Shown here: one piece after another, positions 1-10,336 of the stretch
Position numbering within the stretch: the stretch's first letter is position 1
How the letters are laid out: every line of letters starts with the position of its first letter
NCBI RefSeq assembly: GCF_023525255.1
Contig: NZ_CP073355.1
Span: 434,001-498,000 of the forward strand
From: Thermospira aquatica
GTDB lineage: Bacteria > Spirochaetota > Brevinematia > Brevinematales > Thermospiraceae
Length of the DNA: 64,000 nucleotides
Direction of reading: 5' to 3'
Translations under genes and position numbers: made by a program
The notes under the pieces: model-generated
Seen by the model: only the letters and a program-made list of their open reading frames with translations
What the model was told of the DNA's origin: nothing
Database searches by the model: none

Positions 1-24
1 TCCGCGGTGAGAAAAAACGGAGGG

Positions 25-538
25 GGCTATTACCATGTCACAGTAAAAAGTAAAGGGTCGCTCGTTTTTCCTTGTTAAGGAGAAAACTTTAGCTATTACC
101 TTTTTGCAATGAGAATCAAAAATACAAAAGCTATTTCCTTATCACAGGAAAAAAACTTGCTCTTCCCTTATTGCAGTATGGACTCGGGAGACAAAAGCTC
201 TTCCCTTATTGCAGGGAAAAAGGAGAGGGTATATGAGCTATTCCCTTATCGCAGTGAGAACACTTGCTATTACCGTGTTGCAGTCTGGAAACCTGGCAGC
301 TATTCCCATATTGCAGTGAAAGCGTAAAACATAAAAGCTCTTCCCTTTTTCCAGCGGAAACGAAATGCCCATGAGCTATTACCTTTTCGCAGTCTGAAAA
401 CAATTTTAGCTCTTACCATAGTACAGTTAATGCGAGGGACATAAAAGCTCTTTCCCTGTTACAGTGGCAACCAAGGGACAAGCTCTTCCCGTATCACAGT
501 TTTATACTCTGCGTTCACACTGCAACAAGGTAAGAGCA
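25..538. repeat. Array of a degenerate 20-bp repeat (14 clear copies)
   Basis: Thirteen direct copies begin near 25, 91, 129, 158, 196, 236, 265, 298, 336, 374, 408, 446 and 481, and one inverted copy lies at 519-538. A worn copy near 59 also fits the spacing. The consensus is WGCTMTTMCCNTNTYRCAGT. Start-to-start spacing is 29-40 bp, most often 38, so the unique stretches between copies are only about 9-20 bp. The core GCT..TT.CC.T.T..CAGT is nearly fixed, while positions 1, 5, 8, 11, 13, 15 and 16 vary. This is not a CRISPR: the repeat is too short and degenerate, the spacers are too short, and solo copies are scattered elsewhere in the window. The open frames across it simply reflect the repeat. 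Function is unknown. Confidence 0.85.
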
Positions 539-665
539 TTTTTCTCAACCCCCAAAATCTCCCCATCGATCTTACTTTTAAAATATATAAAACATCTTTT
601 TTAACAACTATAACAAAAAATTTTCGATATATATAGTATGAAAAAATTTCTCTAAGGAGAAAACC

Positions 666-1451
666 ATGGAAAAGGATTTTTTCACACTCTCAGAAAACAG
701 GGCCTACCAGATCCTCGAAAAAGCCCTCTGGCCAGAGGGACCTATTGCCGGTGTAAGGCAAAGGCTCACCTTCTCGTGCCGGCTCGTGTATCAGTGTCCC
801 AAGTGTGGCAGACAATTTTCCTTAAAAAGCCAGTCCATCATGCGAAAAAGTCACCTCTCGCCAAAAATCTGGCTTTCTGCCATGTTTCTTGTCTGCCAGG
901 ATGGTGGCATAAACGCCGTCAAACTCTCGAAACTTCTTCATATTAGCTACAAGGCAAGCTGGCTTCTTCTTCAGAAGCTACGAAGCCTTATGCGGCCACT
1001 CGCCATCACACGAAATCCCTCCGAAAGCTTGTCAAAACCTTTTTCTTTCTCTCCGGCATCAAACGCCGCCAAAGAAAAAACTTTTCTCCCATGCAGGTTG
1101 TCGAAATTGATGCGGATGATACCCCTTCTAAACTTCACATTCATCTTGTGGATGATGTGAGTATTGGCTTTCAGACTTTTTGGCAAGCTTTTCCGCCACA
1201 CGCCCGTAGAAAAAAGAACGCCGTGGCTTTCCCACCTTAACGATGGGTTGAAAAACCTTCTTGAAGACGTCTATCACTATGGTTGTCGAAAGCACATGCA
1301 GCGCTATCTTGATGAATTCTGTTTTCGGTTTAACATCGAGGGGGTTTCTTCCAGGCTTGAAGAGCTTTTAAGAAGGCTTGGCAAACGTCGCCAGCTTCTC
1401 CCGTGGAAAAAGCTTGTTGCTGAAGGGCTTATTCTTCCCATCTGGGCGTAG
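666..1451 (+). pseudogene. Decayed IS1595 (ISXO2-like) family transposase
   Basis: The first segment, about 666-1000, reads a zinc-ribbon-like CPKCGRQF motif followed by the helical region typical of IS1595 transposases (LSPKIWLSAMFL, then a motif around YKASWLLLQKLRSLM). The frame then shifts: a second frame from about 1000 to 1233 reads VVEIDADDT, and the original frame resumes to end with HMQRYLDEFCFRFN, the conserved C-terminal block of the family. Most of the middle catalytic region is missing. At least two frameshifts make it non-functional. Inverted copies of the 20-bp repeat lie on both sides (519-538 and 1629-1648) and may be its termini. Family assignment rests on recognised motifs only. 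Confidence 0.65.
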
Positions 1452-1628
1452 GTTTTCGTTTTTTCTTTCTCAACACATTTCCTGCGTCTGTCAAATAGAA
1501 AACTAAAAGTTTTTGTTTCATTTTGTTTTTTTGAATTTTTTTCATCCTTTTGAAAGAAAAGGACAGGAAAAACTCGAAAATTCATGGTGAAAACGTTTTT
1601 TTCGTGAGGTAAAAGATGAAAAAACATA

Positions 1629-1831
1629 TGCTATTACCTTGTTGCAGTTTTTAGCACCTTATACCCCATAGTATGGTGACGGCTTTCCTGCGATAAGGTA
1701 AGAGCAATTTTGGCAAATCTCGCGTTAAACGTTTAACTTGAGTTTCTCTTCCACACTCTTGAGTGAAAAGACATTTGATCTTACCTTCTTACAGCTAAAA
1801 ACTGTTTTTTTAGCTCTTCCCTTGTTATAGT
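1629..1831. repeat. Four further copies of the 20-bp repeat
   Basis: Copies lie at 1629-1648 (+), 1687-1706 (inverted), 1776-1795 (+, start worn) and 1812-1831 (+, with TAGT in place of CAGT). The copy at 1629 is the inverse of the one at 519-538 with a single mismatch over 20 bp, so the IS1595-like relic sits between inverted copies. Confidence 0.8.
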
Positions 1832-2372
1832 GAAAAACCTGGCCGGAAACTGCAAAAAGGAAATAGCTCCCACTCTCCGCGCACGATATACAAGTCACTC
1901 ACAAAGCGAAAAGAGTATGGAGTGGGAGATTCTTCTCTCCACCCACAAAAGCTCAAACCAAAAATTCCCCTTCAAAAAATTCCCCTTTAAAAGCAAAAAG
2001 AAAAAGCCTTCAGGCCCCTACAGACCCTTTTTCTCTTCCCCCGACAAAAATCCGATCTCACATATACAGAAGGGTCGTTGTACTTTGTGCCTTTATAGCC
2101 ATTTATGGTAAAAACTAAAAAATACTTTATAGAACTAAAACCATAGAAATCTTTCCATAATTCCATGAGTATTCTTCATTTTCTTTTTGAAGACGAAGAT
2201 TCTTTATTCTTTTTGTTGTTTCTTTTTCATCCCTTTCAAGATCAATGTAAAAACAAACTTTGGTAGTATACAAACCTAAACTCATCGGCACTTTCTTTTT
2301 TTACCTTTTTCCATCCTTGATCTCCGTAGGTTTAGTCTATCAAACACGAGAGACGTGAATTTTCTCAAAACT
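1832..2372. other. Gene-free, low-complexity stretch
   Basis: No credible coding region is seen. There is a 93-codon open frame at 1830-2111, but its lysine- and serine-rich composition, lack of a ribosome binding site and start inside a 20-bp repeat argue against it. The stretch has A-rich runs, including a short direct duplication (TTCCCCTT.AAA) near 1968-1990. Confidence 0.5.
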
Positions 2373-3000
2373 TTACTTCAAAACCCGCACATTCACGAGC
2401 TTGTACCTGTCGGGAAGCGTCTCAGTTCCATCCTCCATGATCGTCTTGTTAAGAATACCTCGGAAACCAGTACTCGCCTTTTGTGTAAACTTGATAATCG
2501 TTGATGTCAAAAACCACTCCCTTTAAAATCAAGCCTTTGCAGCCTCATCGTCGTTTTGTCAATAAAAAGAATATACTCGTTGGCCGTGTTTCGGAGAGAA
2601 AGTATAACACTTTTCATCCTCGGCCAGAGTGGTAAGCGTATAATTCTCCCATGCCTTTTTACTCGGCACACTCAAAAGAAGCGGCCCAAGAGTAAAGAAC
2701 CACATAGGGCTGGAAAATATCCCCATACAACTCTGTGCCATCCTCTGTAAGTCCTCGCACCTCAAGCTGCATCCCCTTTCCCCTTTGATAACGAATAATA
2801 ACACGTGTCTTCTCTCCTGGTTTTACCATATCTTTGGGTATAGTACCCAGTTTCTTCTCAATCGGTCCCCCCTGGAGTTCTGCCTCGAACGCTGGAGGAA
2901 GCGCTTCAACAAGATTTTTATGAAACTTCACCACAAATGCCTTGTCCACACCAAAACCAATCGAAACAAATACGAACAAAAAAAGCCCGTATTTACGCAT
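2373..3000 (-). pseudogene. Broken secreted LolA-like (outer-membrane lipoprotein-sorting-like) gene
   Basis: Reading from 3000, a signal peptide (MRKYGLFLFVFVSIGFGVDKAF) leads into a 113-codon frame that stops at 2659. Coding-like sequence carries on in other frames. One reads a VVFDINDYQVYTKGEYWF-type stretch near 2460-2520. Another ends with MEDGTETLPDRYKLVNVRVL before a stop at 2373. The series of beta-rich segments recalls spirochaetal outer-membrane lipoprotein-sorting proteins (periplasmic LolA fold). At least two or three frameshifts are needed to join the pieces. It keeps a good promoter and a ribosome binding site (GAGGAGGGG) upstream, so decay seems recent. IS-A copy 1 inserted just upstream of the promoter. 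Confidence 0.5.
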
Positions 3001-3027
3001 ATTCCCCTCCTCGTCTTTTTATACGTT

Positions 3028-3056
3028 ATTATACACCCATTTTGCCAGAATATCAA
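3028..3056 (-). promoter_or_regulatory. Sigma-70 promoter for the LolA-like pseudogene
   Basis: On the minus strand, TTGATA (3056-3051) and a perfect TATAAT (3033-3028) are separated by 17 nt. The IS-A copy 1 boundary lies only 6 bp upstream of the -35 box. Confidence 0.7.
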
Positions 3057-3150
3057 CTTTCCGAATTGCTTCATAATAAAAGTACTCGAAAAGGGAACGT
3101 TGCTTCAAAATAAAAAAGTACTTTAAATTTGTGTAAAATAATCCAGTTCA

Positions 3151-3219
3151 TGGCTCGACAAGCTCGCCAACCGTGGCTCGACAAGCTCGCCAACCGTGGC
3201 TCGACAGGCTCGCCAACCG
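3151..3219. repeat. Three perfect-register 23-bp tandem repeats inside IS-A
   Basis: Units at 3151-3173, 3174-3196 and 3197-3219 differ by a single A/G. Each contains CTCGACARGCTCGCC. The related IS-A copy 4 has two units at the same place. IS-A copies 2 and 3 lack them and have a plain leader there. Confidence 0.9.
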
Positions 3220-3233
3220 GAATTGGGTTGGCG

Positions 3234-4468
3234 ATGTTTGAAAGGAGACCTATTTACAGGTAAACGGCGAAATGATATGCTGAGCTTGTCGAAGCAAGAG
3301 TATCAAAAACAATAAAAAGGAAAAAATAAGAATGCTGGATTATTTTGTGAGGATAACAGGCCTAAAAAATCGAAACTATGCCGCCAGGCTCTTGAGGCAG
3401 CACGGAAAAACCATCTATGTAGGCAAGAAAAATTACCTTAAAGCCGACATAACCAAGAAGGGCAAAAGACCTGGCAGAAAGAAAAAATTCGGCGAAGAGG
3501 AACTAAAACTTCTAAAAAAGGTCTGGGAAATTGAAAACTACATGTGTGCAAAAGCACTTAAAGCCGATTCTCAATGAAGTTTTAGATAATCTCTTAGCAA
3601 ACGGACATCTCCACGGTTCTCCACAGGCTATAGAAAACTTGCGCCATATAAGTGCCTCAAGTATTGACCGACTTTTGAAACAAGAGCGTAAAAAGCTTGA
3701 GATAAAAGGACGAAAAGGTACAAAGCCTGGAACGCTATTAAAGCAACAAATAGCTATACGCACGTGGGCAGAGTGGGATGAAAATTGCCCTGGTTTTATG
3801 GAGATTGATCTGGTTGCCCATGAGGGAGGAAATAGCCGGGGAGATTTTGCTCAAACATTAAATATGGTGGATGTTTGGAGCGGTTGGACAGAACTTGTGG
3901 CAATCAAAAACAAAGCTTCAAAATGGGTAAGAGAAGCCATAGAAAAAGTCAAAGACTTCCTTTTGAGTTACGGGAATTGATTCTGATACGGTGCTGAATT
4001 TATTAATCATCCTCTACGCGATTGGTGTGAGAAGCACCAGATAAAATTTACAAGGGCTCCCGTTCCAATGATAACTGCTACGTTGAGCAGAAAAACTATT
4101 CCATAGTCCGCCAGAATGTTGGATACTTCCGCTACGATACCGAGGAAGAAGTCTACTACTTGAACCGACTCTATGCGTATCTCAGGCTTTATGCCAACTT
4201 TTCAACGGTTATGAAAATGACAGAGAAAAAGAGAATCGGAAGCAAGGTGCAAAAGAAGCATGATGATATTAAAACTCCCTACCAACGGCTTTTAGAAAGC
4301 TCTTATGTAAGTGAGGCACAAAAGGAACGCCTAACAAGGCTTTATAAGGCTCTCGATTTGTTTCACCTAAGACAAAAAATTACAGCTTGCCAGAGAAAAC
4401 TTTTCAGCCTTCAAAAGAAAAAGAATGTAAAAAACAAAAATTTGGAGGAAACTGTATGGAATTTTTGA
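3234..4468 (+). pseudogene. IS-A transposase, copy 1 (multiple lesions)
   Basis: This is the same protein as in copies 2-4, an integrase-fold (DDE) transposase of roughly 420 residues when rebuilt. The start region reads MFERRPIYR and then a stop. A 24-bp repeat insertion (3273-3296) and small indels follow. The remaining frames are 3332-3577, 3531-3980 (MEIDLVAHEGG with the first catalytic Asp) and 4160-4468. The part with the second Asp and Glu (about 3980-4090) is frameshifted. It cannot be functional. The family is possibly ISNCY or IS481-like, judged from the DSDTGAEF and ND..YVEQKN motifs seen in the better copies. Confidence 0.8.
3273..3296. repeat. 24-bp short repeat inserted in IS-A coding region
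   Basis: Relative to copies 2 and 3, 24 bp containing GCTGAGCTTGTCGAAGC are inserted after the codon for Lys in the start region of the transposase. The identical 24 bp are present at the same site in copy 4 (39166-39189). The core resembles the TTCGACAAGCTCAG-type short repeats found in many bacterial genomes. Confidence 0.85.
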
Positions 4469-4551
4469 GTACTTTTTTTTATGAGGCAATGATTCGAATT
4501 TCGAGTACTTTTTTATTTGACGCAACGGGATGATGTTAAAGATTTCCTTTT

Positions 4552-4700
4552 TCGATACGGACTCCGTCCTACTCTGCAACCGCCCCCGTTCGTCTCGATA
4601 CACTCCGTTACTCGACGAACGACACCACCCAGTCGCCGAGTAGCCCCGCAGGGGCGTATCGAGGCGACCGAGTAGCCCCAACTGCAACATGGGAAGAGCA
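4552..4700. repeat. Palindromic TCGATACG-type repeat cluster plus a 20-bp repeat
   Basis: The region 4552-4680 contains several units of the CTCGATAC...ACTCG(GC)GAC type in both orientations, including a GTATCGAGGCGACCGAGTAG block. The same family fills 48270-48500. It is directly followed by an inverted copy of the 20-bp repeat (ACTGCAACATGGGAAGAGCA, 4681-4700). The overlapping short open frames on the minus strand are artefacts of the repeats. Confidence 0.75.
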
Positions 4701-4803
4701 TTTTCTCCCGAACTTTCCACGGTAGCGGCGAAACAGAAAGCCAATTTCTCCATCCGCTAAATCACATTATCTTAATAAAACTATTCTGAAAAAATCATAA
4801 ATA

Positions 4804-4832
4804 TTGATAAACAGAACAAAAAGCCTTATAAT
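4804..4832 (+). promoter_or_regulatory. Sigma-70 promoter of the restriction-remnant operon
   Basis: TTGATA (4804-4809), 17-nt spacer, perfect TATAAT (4827-4832). It lies about 20 nt before the first small frame at 4853. Confidence 0.7.
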
Positions 4833-4852
4833 TTACAGAAAAAGGAAAAAAC

Positions 4853-4997
4853 ATGCGTGAGGAGCTGAAAAAAAGAAAAACTGATATCATACACATTGGG
4901 AAGGCTTAAAATGGCAGAAAAAGAAGCAAAAGAAGAACAGGAAAAAGCAGAAGAAAAACTTAAAGATGTATTAAAACAACGGGGGTTTGAGATATAG
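4853..4997 (+). pseudogene. Two tiny frames, probable remnant of a type I methylase (hsdM) end
   Basis: An 18-codon frame (4853-4909) is followed one base later by a 28-codon frame (4911-4997, MAEKEAKEEQEKAEEKLKDV...). Both have purine-rich leaders. The second one's stop codon overlaps the ribosome binding site of the AlbA-type gene. The charged helix resembles the C-terminal tail of HsdM proteins, and the position before a regulator and hsdS matches type I loci, so I infer a nearly deleted hsdM. Genuine small proteins from the promoter at 4804 cannot be excluded. Confidence 0.35.
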
Positions 4998-5007
4998 GAG
5001 AAGTGTT

Positions 5008-6327
5008 ATGGAAAACCAGGAAACAGAATACAAAGAATCGTGGCACGATGACTATTTAGAAACGATTTCTGCTTTTGCAAACACCCAAGGAGGCAAACTT
5101 ATCATTGGAATTGACGATAAAAATGAGATTATAGGAGTAAAAAACGCAAAAGAGTTATTAGAGAATCTCCCCAATAAAATCATTCATAAATTAAACATTA
5201 TTCCAGAAATTCAGTCGCGAACGAGAGAAGGAAAAGAGATTATAGAAATTGTTATAAAACCATCAAGTTTTCCAGTATCTTACAATGGCAGGTTTTATAG
5301 GCGTTCGGGTAGTACTACTCAACAACTCAATGGCCAGGAGCTTATGAATTTTCTTCTTGAAAAAAGTGGGCAATCGTGGGATGAAATTGTTGAACCTAAA
5401 GCCAGCTTAGAAGAGATTGATGAAAAAGCAATTGAGAATTTTATTCAACTTGCTAAAGATAAAATTCCGTCAATTGAAACCGAGACAAATTGGGTTAATA
5501 TTTTAAAGAAACTGAAATTAATCGAAAGCGATAAGTTAAAAAGGGCAGCCATTTTGCTTTTTGGGAAAAATCCACAGGATTTTTATATACAGGCAGTAAC
5601 CCGTATAGGCAAATTCAGGACTCCTACGGACGTCGTATCAACAGATATAATTGAAGGTAATCTCTTTGACCAATTACAAAAAACGCTTGAACTTTTACGA
5701 ACCAAGTACCTTATAAGTAAAATTGAATACGAGGACATTCATCGCCGGGAAATCCTTGAATACCCTTATGAAGCCCTGAGGGAAGCTATTATAAACGCAC
5801 TTATTCATAGAGACTATTTAGGTAAGTCCCAGATACAGATACGAATATACGATGACAAACTGATTATAATGAATGAAGGAAAACTACCCCCTGACATACC
5901 TGTTGAGAAATTAAAGACCGACCATATATCCAGGCCGAGGAATCCACTCCTTGCGAGGGTATTTTATTATGCTGGTTTTATTGAAACCTGGGGTAGGGGT
6001 ACCATAAAAATAGTACAGGAGTGTAAAAAGCAGGGACTTCCAGAGCCAGATTTTGAAAACGATAGCGGTGTGATGAAAGTAACTCTCTATAAAGATATTT
6101 ATAATGAAGAAAATTTAAGAAAGATGGGACTGAGCGAAAGACAAATAAAAGCGGTTAGGTATGTGAAAGAGAAAGGGAAAATAACAAATAAAGAGTATCG
6201 TGAAATATCAGGACTTTCAGACGAAGGAGTACGCCTTGACCTAAATGAACTGGTAAAGAAAAAAATATTATTATCAAAAGGTAAAGGAAGAAATACTTAT
6301 TATGTCATTGGAAAATTTGGAGATTAA
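5008..6327 (+). CDS. AlbA_2 (Schlafen-like) domain transcriptional regulator / ATP-binding protein
   Basis: The 439-residue protein belongs to the 'putative DNA-binding domain' family often found inside type I restriction operons. Residues about 5-115 form the AlbA_2 domain (ETEYKESWHDDYLETISAFANTQGG..., then FPVSYNGRFYRRSGS). The middle holds a GHKL-like ATPase region (EALREAIINALIHRDY, about residues 258-273, and GFIETWGRGTIKIV). The C-terminal about 70 residues are a winged helix (KITNKEYREISGLSDEGVRLDLNELV). ATG 5008 is chosen because AGGAG at 4996-5000 lies 7 nt upstream; an in-frame TTG at 4987 lacks one. The AT-rich base composition differs from the core genes, suggesting transfer. Its regulatory target is unknown. 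Confidence 0.8.
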   Translation: MENQETEYKESWHDDYLETISAFANTQGGKLIIGIDDKNEIIGVKNAKELLENLPNKIIHKLNIIPEIQSRTREGKEIIEIVIKPSSFPVSYNGRFYRRSGSTTQQLNGQELMNFLLEKSGQSWDEIVEPKASLEEIDEKAIENFIQLAKDKIPSIETETNWVNILKKLKLIESDKLKRAAILLFGKNPQDFYIQAVTRIGKFRTPTDVVSTDIIEGNLFDQLQKTLELLRTKYLISKIEYEDIHRREILEYPYEALREAIINALIHRDYLGKSQIQIRIYDDKLIIMNEGKLPPDIPVEKLKTDHISRPRNPLLARVFYYAGFIETWGRGTIKIVQECKKQGLPEPDFENDSGVMKVTLYKDIYNEENLRKMGLSERQIKAVRYVKEKGKITNKEYREISGLSDEGVRLDLNELVKKKILLSKGKGRNTYYVIGKFGD

Positions 6328-6426
6328 CTGGCAATTTCTTGGCGATTTTGGCGATTACCTAGCGATAGGGGCATTAAAGGGGCGCCAAAGGGGCAACAAA
6401 GACGACAAAAAAGGGAGTGATAAAAT

Positions 6427-7054
6427 ATGGAAATCACTACATCGAAACAGAATAACACCCTCCAGAACGAAAACTACAAACAAACCGAACTTGGACCACT
6501 TCCACAGGAGTGGGAGGTGGTGAGGTTGGGGGAGGTAATTATTCCAGACAGAGAAAAAATAAAAGCAAAAGATTATTCTGGTAAAGAAAAAATTGTTGAA
6601 AAAATTTCTTTTGATAGAGGTGTGATTGTATTTAGGGATAAAAATAAAACTGCAACAGACCTCTTTAAAGTTGATAAAGAAAGGCTTTTAATATCAAAAA
6701 TTAATTTTCATCAAGGGGCTGTTGCAATAACTCCTGATACAACGGTTGCTACAACACATTATGATATCTATAAAGTATTAGAAAATTCAAATATACTTTA
6801 TTTATGGTATTATTTCCGCTCAGATGCATTCAAAAAATTATTTGCAGAAGAAATTAAATTTCGTGGGTACAAAAAAGAAGCTAATTTTCAATTTATAAAG
6901 GATTTTACAATCCCCCCCCCCGCCCCTTTCCGTCCAGCAAGAAATCGTTGCCAAAATCGAAGCCGAGAGCAAGGTTATCGAAAGTTGCCGGGAACTCATA
7001 AAAACCTACGAAGAAAAAATCAAGCGTGTCATCGATAAAGTCTGGGGGGAGTGA
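6427..7054 (+). pseudogene. hsdS: Half-size type I restriction specificity subunit (HsdS), frameshifted at a C10 tract
   Basis: The N-terminal LGPLPQEWEVVRLGEVI is the standard entry into an HsdS target recognition domain, and about 160 residues of a single recognition domain follow. The frame then reaches a run of ten C (6912-6921) and continues out of phase as an arginine-rich tail to a stop at 7038. In another phase the sequence reads the expected HsdS linker PLSVQQEIVAKIEAES...YEEKIKRVIDKVWGE, ending at 7054. A run of nine C would restore one frame of 208 residues. Only one recognition domain exists, so even in frame it would be a half-subunit. No hsdR or complete hsdM is nearby. The C tract could be a slippage switch or simply decay. 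Confidence 0.7.
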
Positions 7055-7132
7055 TGCAGGTACTGTCATGGGCAAATAGGCACCTTCCTCACCTGCTAAA
7101 AACCTCCTGAACAGACCTCTCTCTGAGACCCC

Positions 7133-9052
7133 TTACACGGCTTTGTTGGTGGCCTTTGCCTCGCCAGTGGTAACCTTGAGCTTCTCCAGGCAAGTTACCA
7201 CTTCTCTTGAGATGTCCTCCATCTCCTTGTAAAGCTTTTGCGCCCTTTCCCTGTCTCCTCTATTCCAAGCGATAACCACCTCCTTTGCAAGGGCGTGAAG
7301 TCGTACATGAGGCTCATCGATCGCCTTAAAAACCTGCAAATTCCCAAAACGCTGGACCCCCTCGCTCACATACCACTTCCCAAACCGACATTGACGGTGA
7401 TCGGGGAGATTGGATGGATCGAGTACCACATCGCCTATTAACGATGCCGCTATTTTTCCAACATAGAGTCTGTGGTCGGTCTTCGCAATATCAAATATCA
7501 TCTTCTCACTTTCTTCCGTCCTGAATTCAAATGTCGCACTTCTCAATTGTTCCGTAACCATAATTAAAGTATTTACCTCATGCATGACATCATGAGCCAT
7601 TGTTTCTATGTTCTTTGATTCCATGGAGACCTTTTCCACGTTCCTTGCTACCTCATGGGATGCGGTGGCTTGCTCCTCTACGGCCGCAGTAATATCTGTT
7701 ACCTGATTTTTTACCTCCTGAACAGCATTCGTAATAGCATGCAAAACCCCCGTAACCTTCTCGATGTAATCTGAAACTTTGGTAACTTCCTGAGACGTTT
7801 TTCCCATAGAGGACACCGTCTGACGGATTTCTTTCTGAATGGATTGTATTTCTTCTGTAATTTCTGTTGTGGCTTTGAGGGTTTTTTCAGCGAGATTTCT
7901 TACTTCCTCAGCCACTACGGCAAATCCTTTTCCTTGTTTTCCAGCTCGTGCCGCCTCAATTGTCGCATTCAACGCGAGGAGATTGGTTTGATCAGCGATG
8001 TCCTTGATGATGGCAACGATATCGCCTATCTCGGTCGAGCGCTTATGAAGTTTTTCAACCATTGCTTTGAGTTCTTCGGTGGATTCCCCGAGATTGGTGA
8101 TGATAACGCCAGCATCACTGGCCATCTTTTTACCTTCTTCGCTTTTTTGCATCGCTTTTTCCGAGTTCTCCGCAGCGCGTGTTGCACTATTTGCTATCTC
8201 GTTTATCGTCTGACTCATCTCTTCGGCCGCTGTCGCTATCTGAGTTGCCTCAAAAGCTTGCAAAGACACCCCATCTTTTGTTCTCTGCCCCTGAACTCTT
8301 AGATTATCCACCGTGGAAACAACTGTATTAGAAGCAACCACCAGCTTGTTGAAAATTTTCTTAAAAGAGGTAAGCATATGCTGAAGATCTGTATAAAGCA
8401 TGGCTATTTCATCTTTACCCTTTAGCTCGGGAAGAGTGACATCGAGATGTCCTTTAGTCAATTCCTTTATCCTCTCGGTAAGGCCAAGGATCAAGGATAC
8501 GATATTGCGCTGCATAAAGACAGCAAAACCCACAAGAATAACCAAATTCACAACCAGCAGAGAAATCTGAATCACCCGCAATATCTTCACATTCTCATCA
8601 ATGGCAAAAAGAGACACTGCCCTGTCCATTTCCTGGAGAAAAATTCTACTCTTTTCAAACAGGGCAGGAGCAAAGGCAGGATCCTCCTTCGCTTTCTGGA
8701 TGGTTTCTTTATACTGTTTCCATGCATCTTCTACCATTCTCATTTGAAATAGAACTCTCTCTTCTGTAGTCCTGGGAAGTTTCAACTCTCGATCACCCTC
8801 TATCAAGCCGTGCATAATTCGATCAACAAAAGCCATCGCCTGTTGAAGTTCGGCTTCATGATCTACACCCTGGTATTTTGCCAGAACATAAGAGGCAATC
8901 TGTTGTGATAAAAATCTTTGTTTTCCTAAAAAATTGACCACGTTATCTTTTTCACTGATCAAGGTAAGTTGAAAAAGAAGAATGGATGTGTTTACCAGAG
9001 AAATAACAGCGAGAATTACCCACGCTATATTGGAGCGGGTGGAAATCCTCAT
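7133..9052 (-). CDS. Methyl-accepting chemotaxis protein with PilJ-type sensor and CZB domain
   Basis: The 639-residue inner-membrane chemoreceptor relays ligand binding to CheA/CheW. A first membrane segment is at about 8-30. The periplasmic region resembles the PilJ/NIT-like four-helix sensor ([17 protein letters not shown]). A second membrane segment at about 160-183 is followed by a HAMP domain. The cytoplasmic signalling hairpin centres on the conserved tip [20 protein letters not shown]. The C-terminal about 100 residues form a chemoreceptor zinc-binding (CZB) domain, with [16 protein letters not shown] and [10 protein letters not shown] supplying the Cys and His ligands. GGAGGAGG precedes the start. 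Its upstream region is cut by IS-B copy 1 only about 50 bp away, next to a TCCGATAA sequence resembling a sigma-28 -10 box. Confidence 0.93.
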
Positions 9053-9130
9053 AACTTCCTCCTCCTTATTTTAAACGCTAATAATAAAAGTTATCGGAAA
9101 AATACATTGTGTCAAGAAAATTGTGTCTAG

Positions 9131-10293
9131 TCATAGGATAACCTCGCTGTGAATATTTTCTTTGGTGTATGAGTGTTGCTCACGATAGAGTTGAAAGTAA
9201 TACTCCCAATTTTTTAACTTTCTTTTTAAGAACTTCTCATTTTGGTATCTTAATAACAGGTAAAGATATTTCTCAGCTGAAGCCTCGCTTTGACACATTT
9301 CCATTGTTTTTAATCTCCTTTTAAGTTCTTTAAAGAGTCTTTCCAGGGCATTGTTTGTATACACCATGCTTCGTATTCCTTCAGGTAATTCCATGTAAGT
9401 GAATATATTCTCTCTTATTGTCAAGAGGTTATTCATTAAGTTGGGATAGATATTTTTCCATTTTTGTGTAAATTTCATAAACAATTGTTCTGCCTCCTGT
9501 TTGTCTTTGGCATGAAATACCTCTTTTATTTCAGTGGCAATGATATTTCTGTGTTGAACTCTCACTTTAGCCAGTATGTTTCTCATGACATGGACTACAC
9601 AGGGCTGATACTTTGCGTGGGGATATATCTCTGTTATGACGTTTTTCATACCACTTAAGCCATCAGAGACAATAAAATGAATCTGTTTGACACCTCTTTC
9701 TCTTATATCTGCAAAATTTCCCGCCAGTTATAAGCACTTTCCATGCCTCCTGGCAGGTAGTATCCTAAAATCTCCCGTCTTCCCTCAGGTGTAATGCCTA
9801 TAGCTACATATATTGATTCATTTTCTACCCTATCTCTCTTGATAGGAAACACCATAGCATCCAGAAATACCACGGCATATTCTTCCATGAGAGGGCGACT
9901 ACGCCACTTCTGAATCTCTTCTATGCCTACCTGGCTTATCCTTGAGATGTTAGCATAAGAAATCTTTATTTCATAAAGCTCTTTTAAAACTTCTGCTATC
10001 TTCCTTGTTGACATTCCTGATATCAACATAGCCCTGATTAATGCATCTAAGTCTTCTGTGATGCGTTTGCGATAGGGAAGAAGGGCACTTTTAAATCCAT
10101 TATCCCTTGTTCTTGGAACACGTATGGCTGTAAGCTCGCCAAAAGCTGTCTTTAAATCCCTTTCGTAAAAGCCATTGCCTTTTGTGGGAGGATTGTTTTC
10201 CAGGTAAATCTCTCTTTCCTCTTTTAACATACTCTCTAATACTTCCTTGACAATTGGTTTGAATAGCTCTAAAATATTCTTCGTCTCAATCAT
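9131..10293 (-). pseudogene. IS256-family transposase, copy 1 (one frameshift)
   Basis: It encodes a Mutator-type DDE transposase: FLDAMVFPIK has the first Asp, FIVSDGLSGMKN the second, and NNALERLFKELKRR the Glu, near the end. The two frames 10293-9703 and 9649-9131 are joined by a one-base deletion near 9711 (ATCTGCAAAAT, where copy 2 has ATCTAGCAAAAT). Apart from that the reading frame is complete at about 400 residues. The start codon is preceded by AGGAGG within a strong hairpin (10300-10336). Confidence 0.88.
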
Positions 10294-10299
10294 ATCTGG

Positions 10300-10336
10300 C
10301 CTCCTGTGATAGTTTTATTTATATTATCACAGGAGG
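10300..10336 (-). promoter_or_regulatory. Hairpin hiding the transposase ribosome binding site
   Basis: Perfect 12-bp arms CCTCCTGTGATA (10300-10311) and TATCACAGGAGG (10325-10336) enclose a 13-nt loop. On the minus-strand transcript the arm nearest the gene contains AGGAGG, 6 nt before the ATG at 10293. A read-through transcript would trap this site. The same structure is in IS-B copy 2 (32663-32699). Confidence 0.75.

Follow-up and report, generated by a model that had tools for sequence, protein, structure and literature searches.

The specificity subunits of type I restriction systems can be of half size, and truncation of EcoDXXI reportedly yielded such a half-S subunit (MacWilliams and Bickle 1996). 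Half-S subunits are described as having one target recognition domain (TRD) and one helix and as dimerising, and the same source gives the name 'Type IMS' to the fusion of HsdM with HsdS (PMC3510504). Simple repeats have been reported in 7.9% of the hsdS genes (PMC7394358). A well-documented example is NgoAV of Neisseria gonorrhoeae, with hsdS1 and hsdS2, where the type I specificity gene is phase-variable through a poly-G tract whose length varied between 6 and 9 G among 92 strains (PMC9577141).

We analysed a stretch of 64 kb (the window, positions 434001-498000) of a genome that consists of a single contig of 2,515,453 bases, is 99.8% complete and belongs to a family with three genomes in the comparison set. 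The window holds a half-size hsdS gene that loses its reading frame at a run of ten C. By size, this gene corresponds to one TRD plus one terminal helix, as in the half-S subunits described; however, its helix is out of frame and the protein as read lacks it. It shares with NgoAV (PMC9577141) a C/G homopolymer at the end of a half HsdS of around 200 codons, where the frame sets what follows. Nevertheless, NgoAV is described there with hsdM, hsdR, a second half gene downstream and documented length variation, whereas in the window hsdM has been deleted and only a tail of 44 codons follows. This tail has its homologue in the 3' end of a fusion gene of the Type IMS kind, but the window copy is separated from any M domain. 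We conclude that the locus is probably the product of a recent recombination between two type I operons and an inactive relic, rather than a maintained contingency switch. The features of the locus, in window coordinates, are the following:

3062-4529, + strand: insertion sequence (IS) copy with broken frames, delimited by BLAST comparison with the copies in two other stretches of the genome (L006 and L007)
4681-4932, + strand: hsdR leader with the first seven codons, a duplicate of those in the hsdR-fic-hsdMS operon of L007 (BLAST)
4911-4997, + strand: hybrid mini-ORF of 28 codons, hsdR start joined to a type I hsdM C-terminus (alignment)
5008-6327, + strand: AlbA_2/Schlafen and HATPase_c_4 gene, fully open (Pfam)
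6427-7038, + strand: half-size hsdS in its current reading (ORF, 203 aa), with N-terminal conserved region, one TRD and an out-of-frame end
6427-6535, + strand: N-terminal conserved region of hsdS, 49% GC
6536-6908, + strand: TRD of hsdS, 26% GC
6909-7054, + strand: C-terminal tail, 3' end of an hsdM-hsdS fusion gene, coding from 6920 in a different frame, 50% GC
6912-6921, + strand: C10 tract within the IPxPPL motif, point of frame loss (sequence, run search)
7133-9052, - strand: methyl-accepting chemotaxis gene, unrelated right neighbour (Pfam)

The half-size hsdS gene and its C10 tract

The ORF 6427-7038 has the TRD of a type I specificity gene. The Methylase_S domain (PF01420, E 2.3e-7) covers residues 26-165 and ends at the C tract, which agrees with the half-size HsdS that an earlier note on this DNA had recognised; further HsdS matches were PADLOC Specificity_I (E 5e-14) and PDB 1yf2 (E 1e-6). 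The conserved C-terminal helix is not in the same frame, and in the place of an adjacent cognate hsdM only about the last 21-25 codons of such a gene remain. Thus, the gene does not present one TRD and one helix in a single open frame, as a dimerising half-S would, and it is not an HsdMS fusion either, having Methylase_S alone without N6_Mtase.

Regarding the relatives of its segments, the N-terminal stretch 6481-6531 is 88% identical over 51 bases to an hsdS remnant of the sister species G014 (L070:5065-5015), and the TRD has 42-43% identity with the first TRD in an HsdS frame of 451 aa from another genome (G205). The viral contigs held one relative of the TRD, within a frame of 453 aa, and the plasmid records held no match to the N-terminal half of hsdS. 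The G014 stretch L070:5009-5677 contains remnants of an AlbA_2 gene as well as of the hsdS start.

The frame is lost exactly at the C10 tract, as the earlier note had stated: Methylase_S runs up to the tract, and the tail, PPLSVQQEIVAKIEAESKVIESCRELIKTYEEKIKRVIDKVWGE followed by a stop, is in a different frame from the hsdS ORF and ends at 7054. Downstream of the tract the hsdS frame reads as a Pro/Arg-rich sequence. That nine C would restore the frame and the end at 7054 is borne out by the homologous motif of the sister species, AT-CCCCCTCCC-G, which is one base shorter than the window stretch and in frame; the G014 gene has C5-T-C3 at the motif and the window has ten C. The segment VQQEIVAKIE, which the note took for a conserved linker, has its counterpart in the C-terminal tail of a protein with two TRDs and not in a central linker.

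As a homopolymer alone, C10 is within chance expectation (0.22 matches expected per 64 kb, at least one in 16 of 100 shuffles). Nor does the genome have an excess of runs of at least nine C: the C9 pattern had 10 matches in 2.5 Mb against around 29 expected, as scaled from the window shuffles. Judged by its relatives, the tract is long for its motif position: the C runs were of 2-6 in all the 29 distinct IPxPPx motifs, counted with one fixed pattern among related hsdS genes at 44 listed loci. Furthermore, in the five longer homologous frames that we read (G014, G342, G180, G134 and G195) the motif is always broken by a non-C base, and the longest C run is 4-6. Set beside a switch of the NgoAV kind, the window gene has the C/G homopolymer at a frame-critical site of hsdS, the tract is not conserved in the homologues, and the operon has no hsdM and hsdR partners, for which the only candidates are at 92 kb and at 370-375 kb of the genome.

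We compared seven distinct long C/G tracts of the genome. The ten-base tract of the homoserine dehydrogenase gene (L054) is in frame, between two Pfam domains of one frame, and so are the tract inside an O-methyltransferase gene and the one in mlaE, three codons from the gene end. One further tract sits in tRNA-Met, and another one (L047) falls in no gene to which a name could be given. A G9 tract (L053:1501-1509, genome 993271-993279) ends an ORF of 393 aa without Pfam match, with a plausible C-terminus in a different frame, and this early end fits switches or homopolymer errors alike.

The flanks and the restriction genes of the genome

The stretch 6909-7055 has 81.6% DNA identity over 147 aligned bases to L122:243-98, the 3' end of the G014 HsdMS, and at the protein level the identity of the 44-codon tail is 89%. 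The G014 HsdMS (L122, 824 aa) is intact and in frame, with N6_Mtase and two Methylase_S stretches. The 44-aa tail was matched in 18 of the 392 genomes of the phylum, the own genome counted; in 13 of these it lies within long frames (813-988 aa, one of 619 aa) and in the other five in short frames only. In each of the five long frames that we read the tail is the C-terminus; both domains were checked in that of G014, and the frame of G134 begins as an HsdM of the same type. Because the homologues sit at the ends of long frames of HsdMS size, the tail most likely derives from a system of the hsdR-fic-hsdMS type. On the same basis, that these homologues are frames of HsdMS size, it would be foreign to the window hsdS.

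The comparison of the tail with G014 gave 18 synonymous and 5 non-synonymous codon changes (dN 0.065 and dS 1.67 over 44 codons, the dS being saturated), and the comparison with G134 gave 13 of each. The tail frame is free of internal stops. This suggests that the tail was under purifying selection in the past, and since the changes against G014 are mostly synonymous and there is no stop in the frame, the break is probably recent. Among the plasmid records there was one match to the tail, with 45.5% identity, in an annotated N-6 DNA methylase, whereas in the viral contigs the tail was confirmed in none of 108 candidate stretches. The isolated 44-aa tail also gave Pfam matches to CinA_KH and HR1, which were weak and below the cut-offs and which we dismissed as helix similarity.

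On the left side, 4681-4932 is 95% identical over 253 aligned bases to L007:3745-3997 of the own genome, and the BLAST similarity stops there; the IS and the stretch 4530-4644 are also common to L007. Past 4932, 13 of the 22 aligned residues of the mini-ORF are identical to the end of an HsdM of 505 aa that precedes an AlbA_2 gene in L077, from a MAG of candidate division TA06. The window AlbA_2 gene is in turn 48% identical, in the best segment, to the one that follows hsdM in L077, where the order is type I hsdM, AlbA_2 and an apparent hsdS start, this last recognised by eye from 24 residues at the contig end.

The 1.4-kb IS has at least 55 BLAST matches elsewhere in the 2.5-Mb genome, some of them tandem and some frame-broken; 40 of the 131 candidates were scored, and the window copy is not among the matches listed. 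The conserved genes compared in G014 and G037, which we take to be pgi to gltX, form a stretch conserved in both genomes; the ORFs of window positions 1-10300 had no match in around 15 kb to the left of this stretch, and no empty site was defined.

The window hsdS is the only PF01420 match above threshold in a profile search of the 2.5 Mb. N6_Mtase has four matches in the genome, none of them inside the 64-kb window. One is the HsdM at 92 kb, another is an M domain at 374 kb, and the remaining two share a large frame at 737 kb. HSDR_N has a single match, at 370 kb. Therefore, the earlier statement that no complete hsdM or hsdR is nearby is true of the window, but both are present elsewhere, and the genome search that the note had proposed did find them, as an open hsdM at 92 kb and an hsdR-fic-hsdM'S' operon at 370-375 kb.

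The 92-kb HsdM is an open frame of 520 aa with HsdM_N and N6_Mtase. It is followed, within L006:7086-14262 (92-99 kb), by a methylase and MjaI-type endonuclease pair, an AlbA_2-type fragment, GmrSD and the C-terminal part only of hsdR, a decayed hsd remnant at L006:13630-14262. By its gene content, this appears to be a type I locus that was broken up and into which other restriction genes have come. We considered the window hsdS as the partner of this hsdM. The resemblance of the hsdS N-terminal region to the G014 remnant speaks for the pairing; however, the identity of this HsdM to the type that left its end at the window locus is only 32%.

In the operon at 370-375 kb (L007:3979-9136) the HsdR is open, with its best NCBIfam match to the EcoAI/FtnUII family below the curated cut-off, and the N6_Mtase domain is complete. 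The hsdM'S' gene enters the first residues of the S domain, and then the similarity to the sister relative is lost at L007:9136, near an IS copy. In the sister species G014 the hsdMS fusion is whole, unlike this cut copy.

Origin of the locus

In the recombination that we propose, the end of one type I operon would have taken the place of the interior of a second one. The left crossover would lie in A-rich codons, leaving the hsdR leader plus seven codons, and the right one in the C-rich IPxPPL motif that is common to HsdS proteins. Such an event would have removed hsdM and one TRD, resulting in a half-size hsdS with the frame lost at C10, and the tract itself could date from the junction, or else a T-to-C change in C5-T-C3 and subsequent slippage could have made it. 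A product with a TRD but without the C-terminal helix would neither dimerise nor bind HsdM. We regard the protein as inactive because the terminal helix is out of frame, going by the role of this helix (PMC3510504).

The locus reads as a chimera because its left flank and its tail match the hsdR-fic-hsdMS type and its middle resembles the hsdM-AlbA_2-hsdS order of L077, and also because the GC content steps from 49% to 26% and back to 50% across hsdS. Also in favour of this reading, the S part of the own hsdM'S' stops matching its relative just past the first conserved residues and the window hsdS is the sole Methylase_S match. The interrupted motif of the homologues, the lack of enrichment of C9 runs and the other tracts being in frame point in the same direction. 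Some observations count against this reading. The open frame of the tail and its few amino-acid changes against G014 are expected also if the gene is functional in some cells, the position of C10 at a frame-critical site resembles a switch as well, and the L053 tract likewise ends a frame early. Moreover, the start of the window hsdS resembles the G014 remnant, which lies beside a different type of AlbA_2.

The earlier note had proposed a phase-variable contingency gene. Such a gene would work in the manner of NgoAV hsdS1: slippage of the C tract would toggle the C-terminal helix, and in the ON state the single-TRD S would dimerise and direct an HsdM from elsewhere to a palindromic site. The precedent of 6-9 G in 92 gonococcal strains (PMC9577141) makes this conceivable, and the tract at a frame-critical site, followed by an open tail with few amino-acid changes, is consistent with it. 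Possible partners also exist: the HsdM at 92 kb is open, and so is the HsdR at 370-375 kb, where the N6_Mtase domain is complete and the system type is that of the tail. Nevertheless, we consider a switch unlikely: the adjoining hsdM has been deleted down to its last 21-25 codons or so, the five longer homologous frames that we read have another base within the tract, the genome shows no excess of C tracts, and the 92-kb HsdM is the distant one of 32% identity. Even less probable, in our opinion, is that the gene is truly in frame and that the assembly has the wrong homopolymer length. Long C runs are hard for some sequencing platforms, and the second tract that ends its frame early, in L053, could be of the same kind; but the ten-base tract of the homoserine dehydrogenase lies in one frame, therefore the assembly handles such a length there.

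Decay, the other alternative of the earlier note, came closer than the switch, although not as simple decay. We see very little chance that this is an old pseudogene that was never a chimera. Decayed hsd remnants do occur, both in the own genome (L006:13630-14262) and in the sister species (L070), but here the two sides are similar to a different operon type, the GC content is mosaic across hsdS, and the tail frame, with its 18 synonymous and 5 non-synonymous changes, has no stop, all of which speaks against simple decay.

Orphan hsdMS tails in other genomes

Among the 32 places listed for the tail, eight are short frames (37-74 aa), namely that of the window and seven more, spread over five genomes. 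These seven orphan hsdMS tails are at L156:4707-4835, L157:4571-4702, L158:7893-7994, L160:3884-4009 and 6015-6077, L161:5225-5326 and L159:5703-5804. Their upstream neighbours, taken within about 330 bases, are the following:

G057: KwaB-like gene
G134: HhH-GPD gene, matching the PADLOC type II nicking endonuclease
G134: AIPR/AbiU gene
G153: PDC-M11B gene
G153: Fic gene
G177: glutamine amidotransferase
G037: contig end

Genes of defence families (KwaB-like, nicking-endonuclease-like, AIPR/AbiU and PDC-M11B) precede four of the seven orphan tails, which is a small count. The Fic gene may simply be part of an hsdR-fic-hsdMS operon. In one contig of G134 (C88) the AIPR gene is flanked by the tail of an hsdMS-like frame of 891 aa and by an orphan tail, and in one of G153 (C32) a PDC-M11A/B pair lies between two orphan tails. 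We would only tentatively suggest that the hsdMS 3' end is a recurrent anchor for the exchange of defence genes, leaving its last 21-44 codons as orphan tails behind genes unrelated to it, and that recombination at IPxPPL creates half-size, slippage-prone hsdS genes; we hold this to be rather doubtful.

Thus, in the case of a homopolymer in hsdS, what the tract suggests and what it shows are different things, and in this case it is a recombination junction that the relatives indicate. Should the pattern of the orphan tails hold, restriction loci would swap defence cargo at the conserved HsdS motifs, as physical hot spots, and this swapping would make single-TRD specificity genes.
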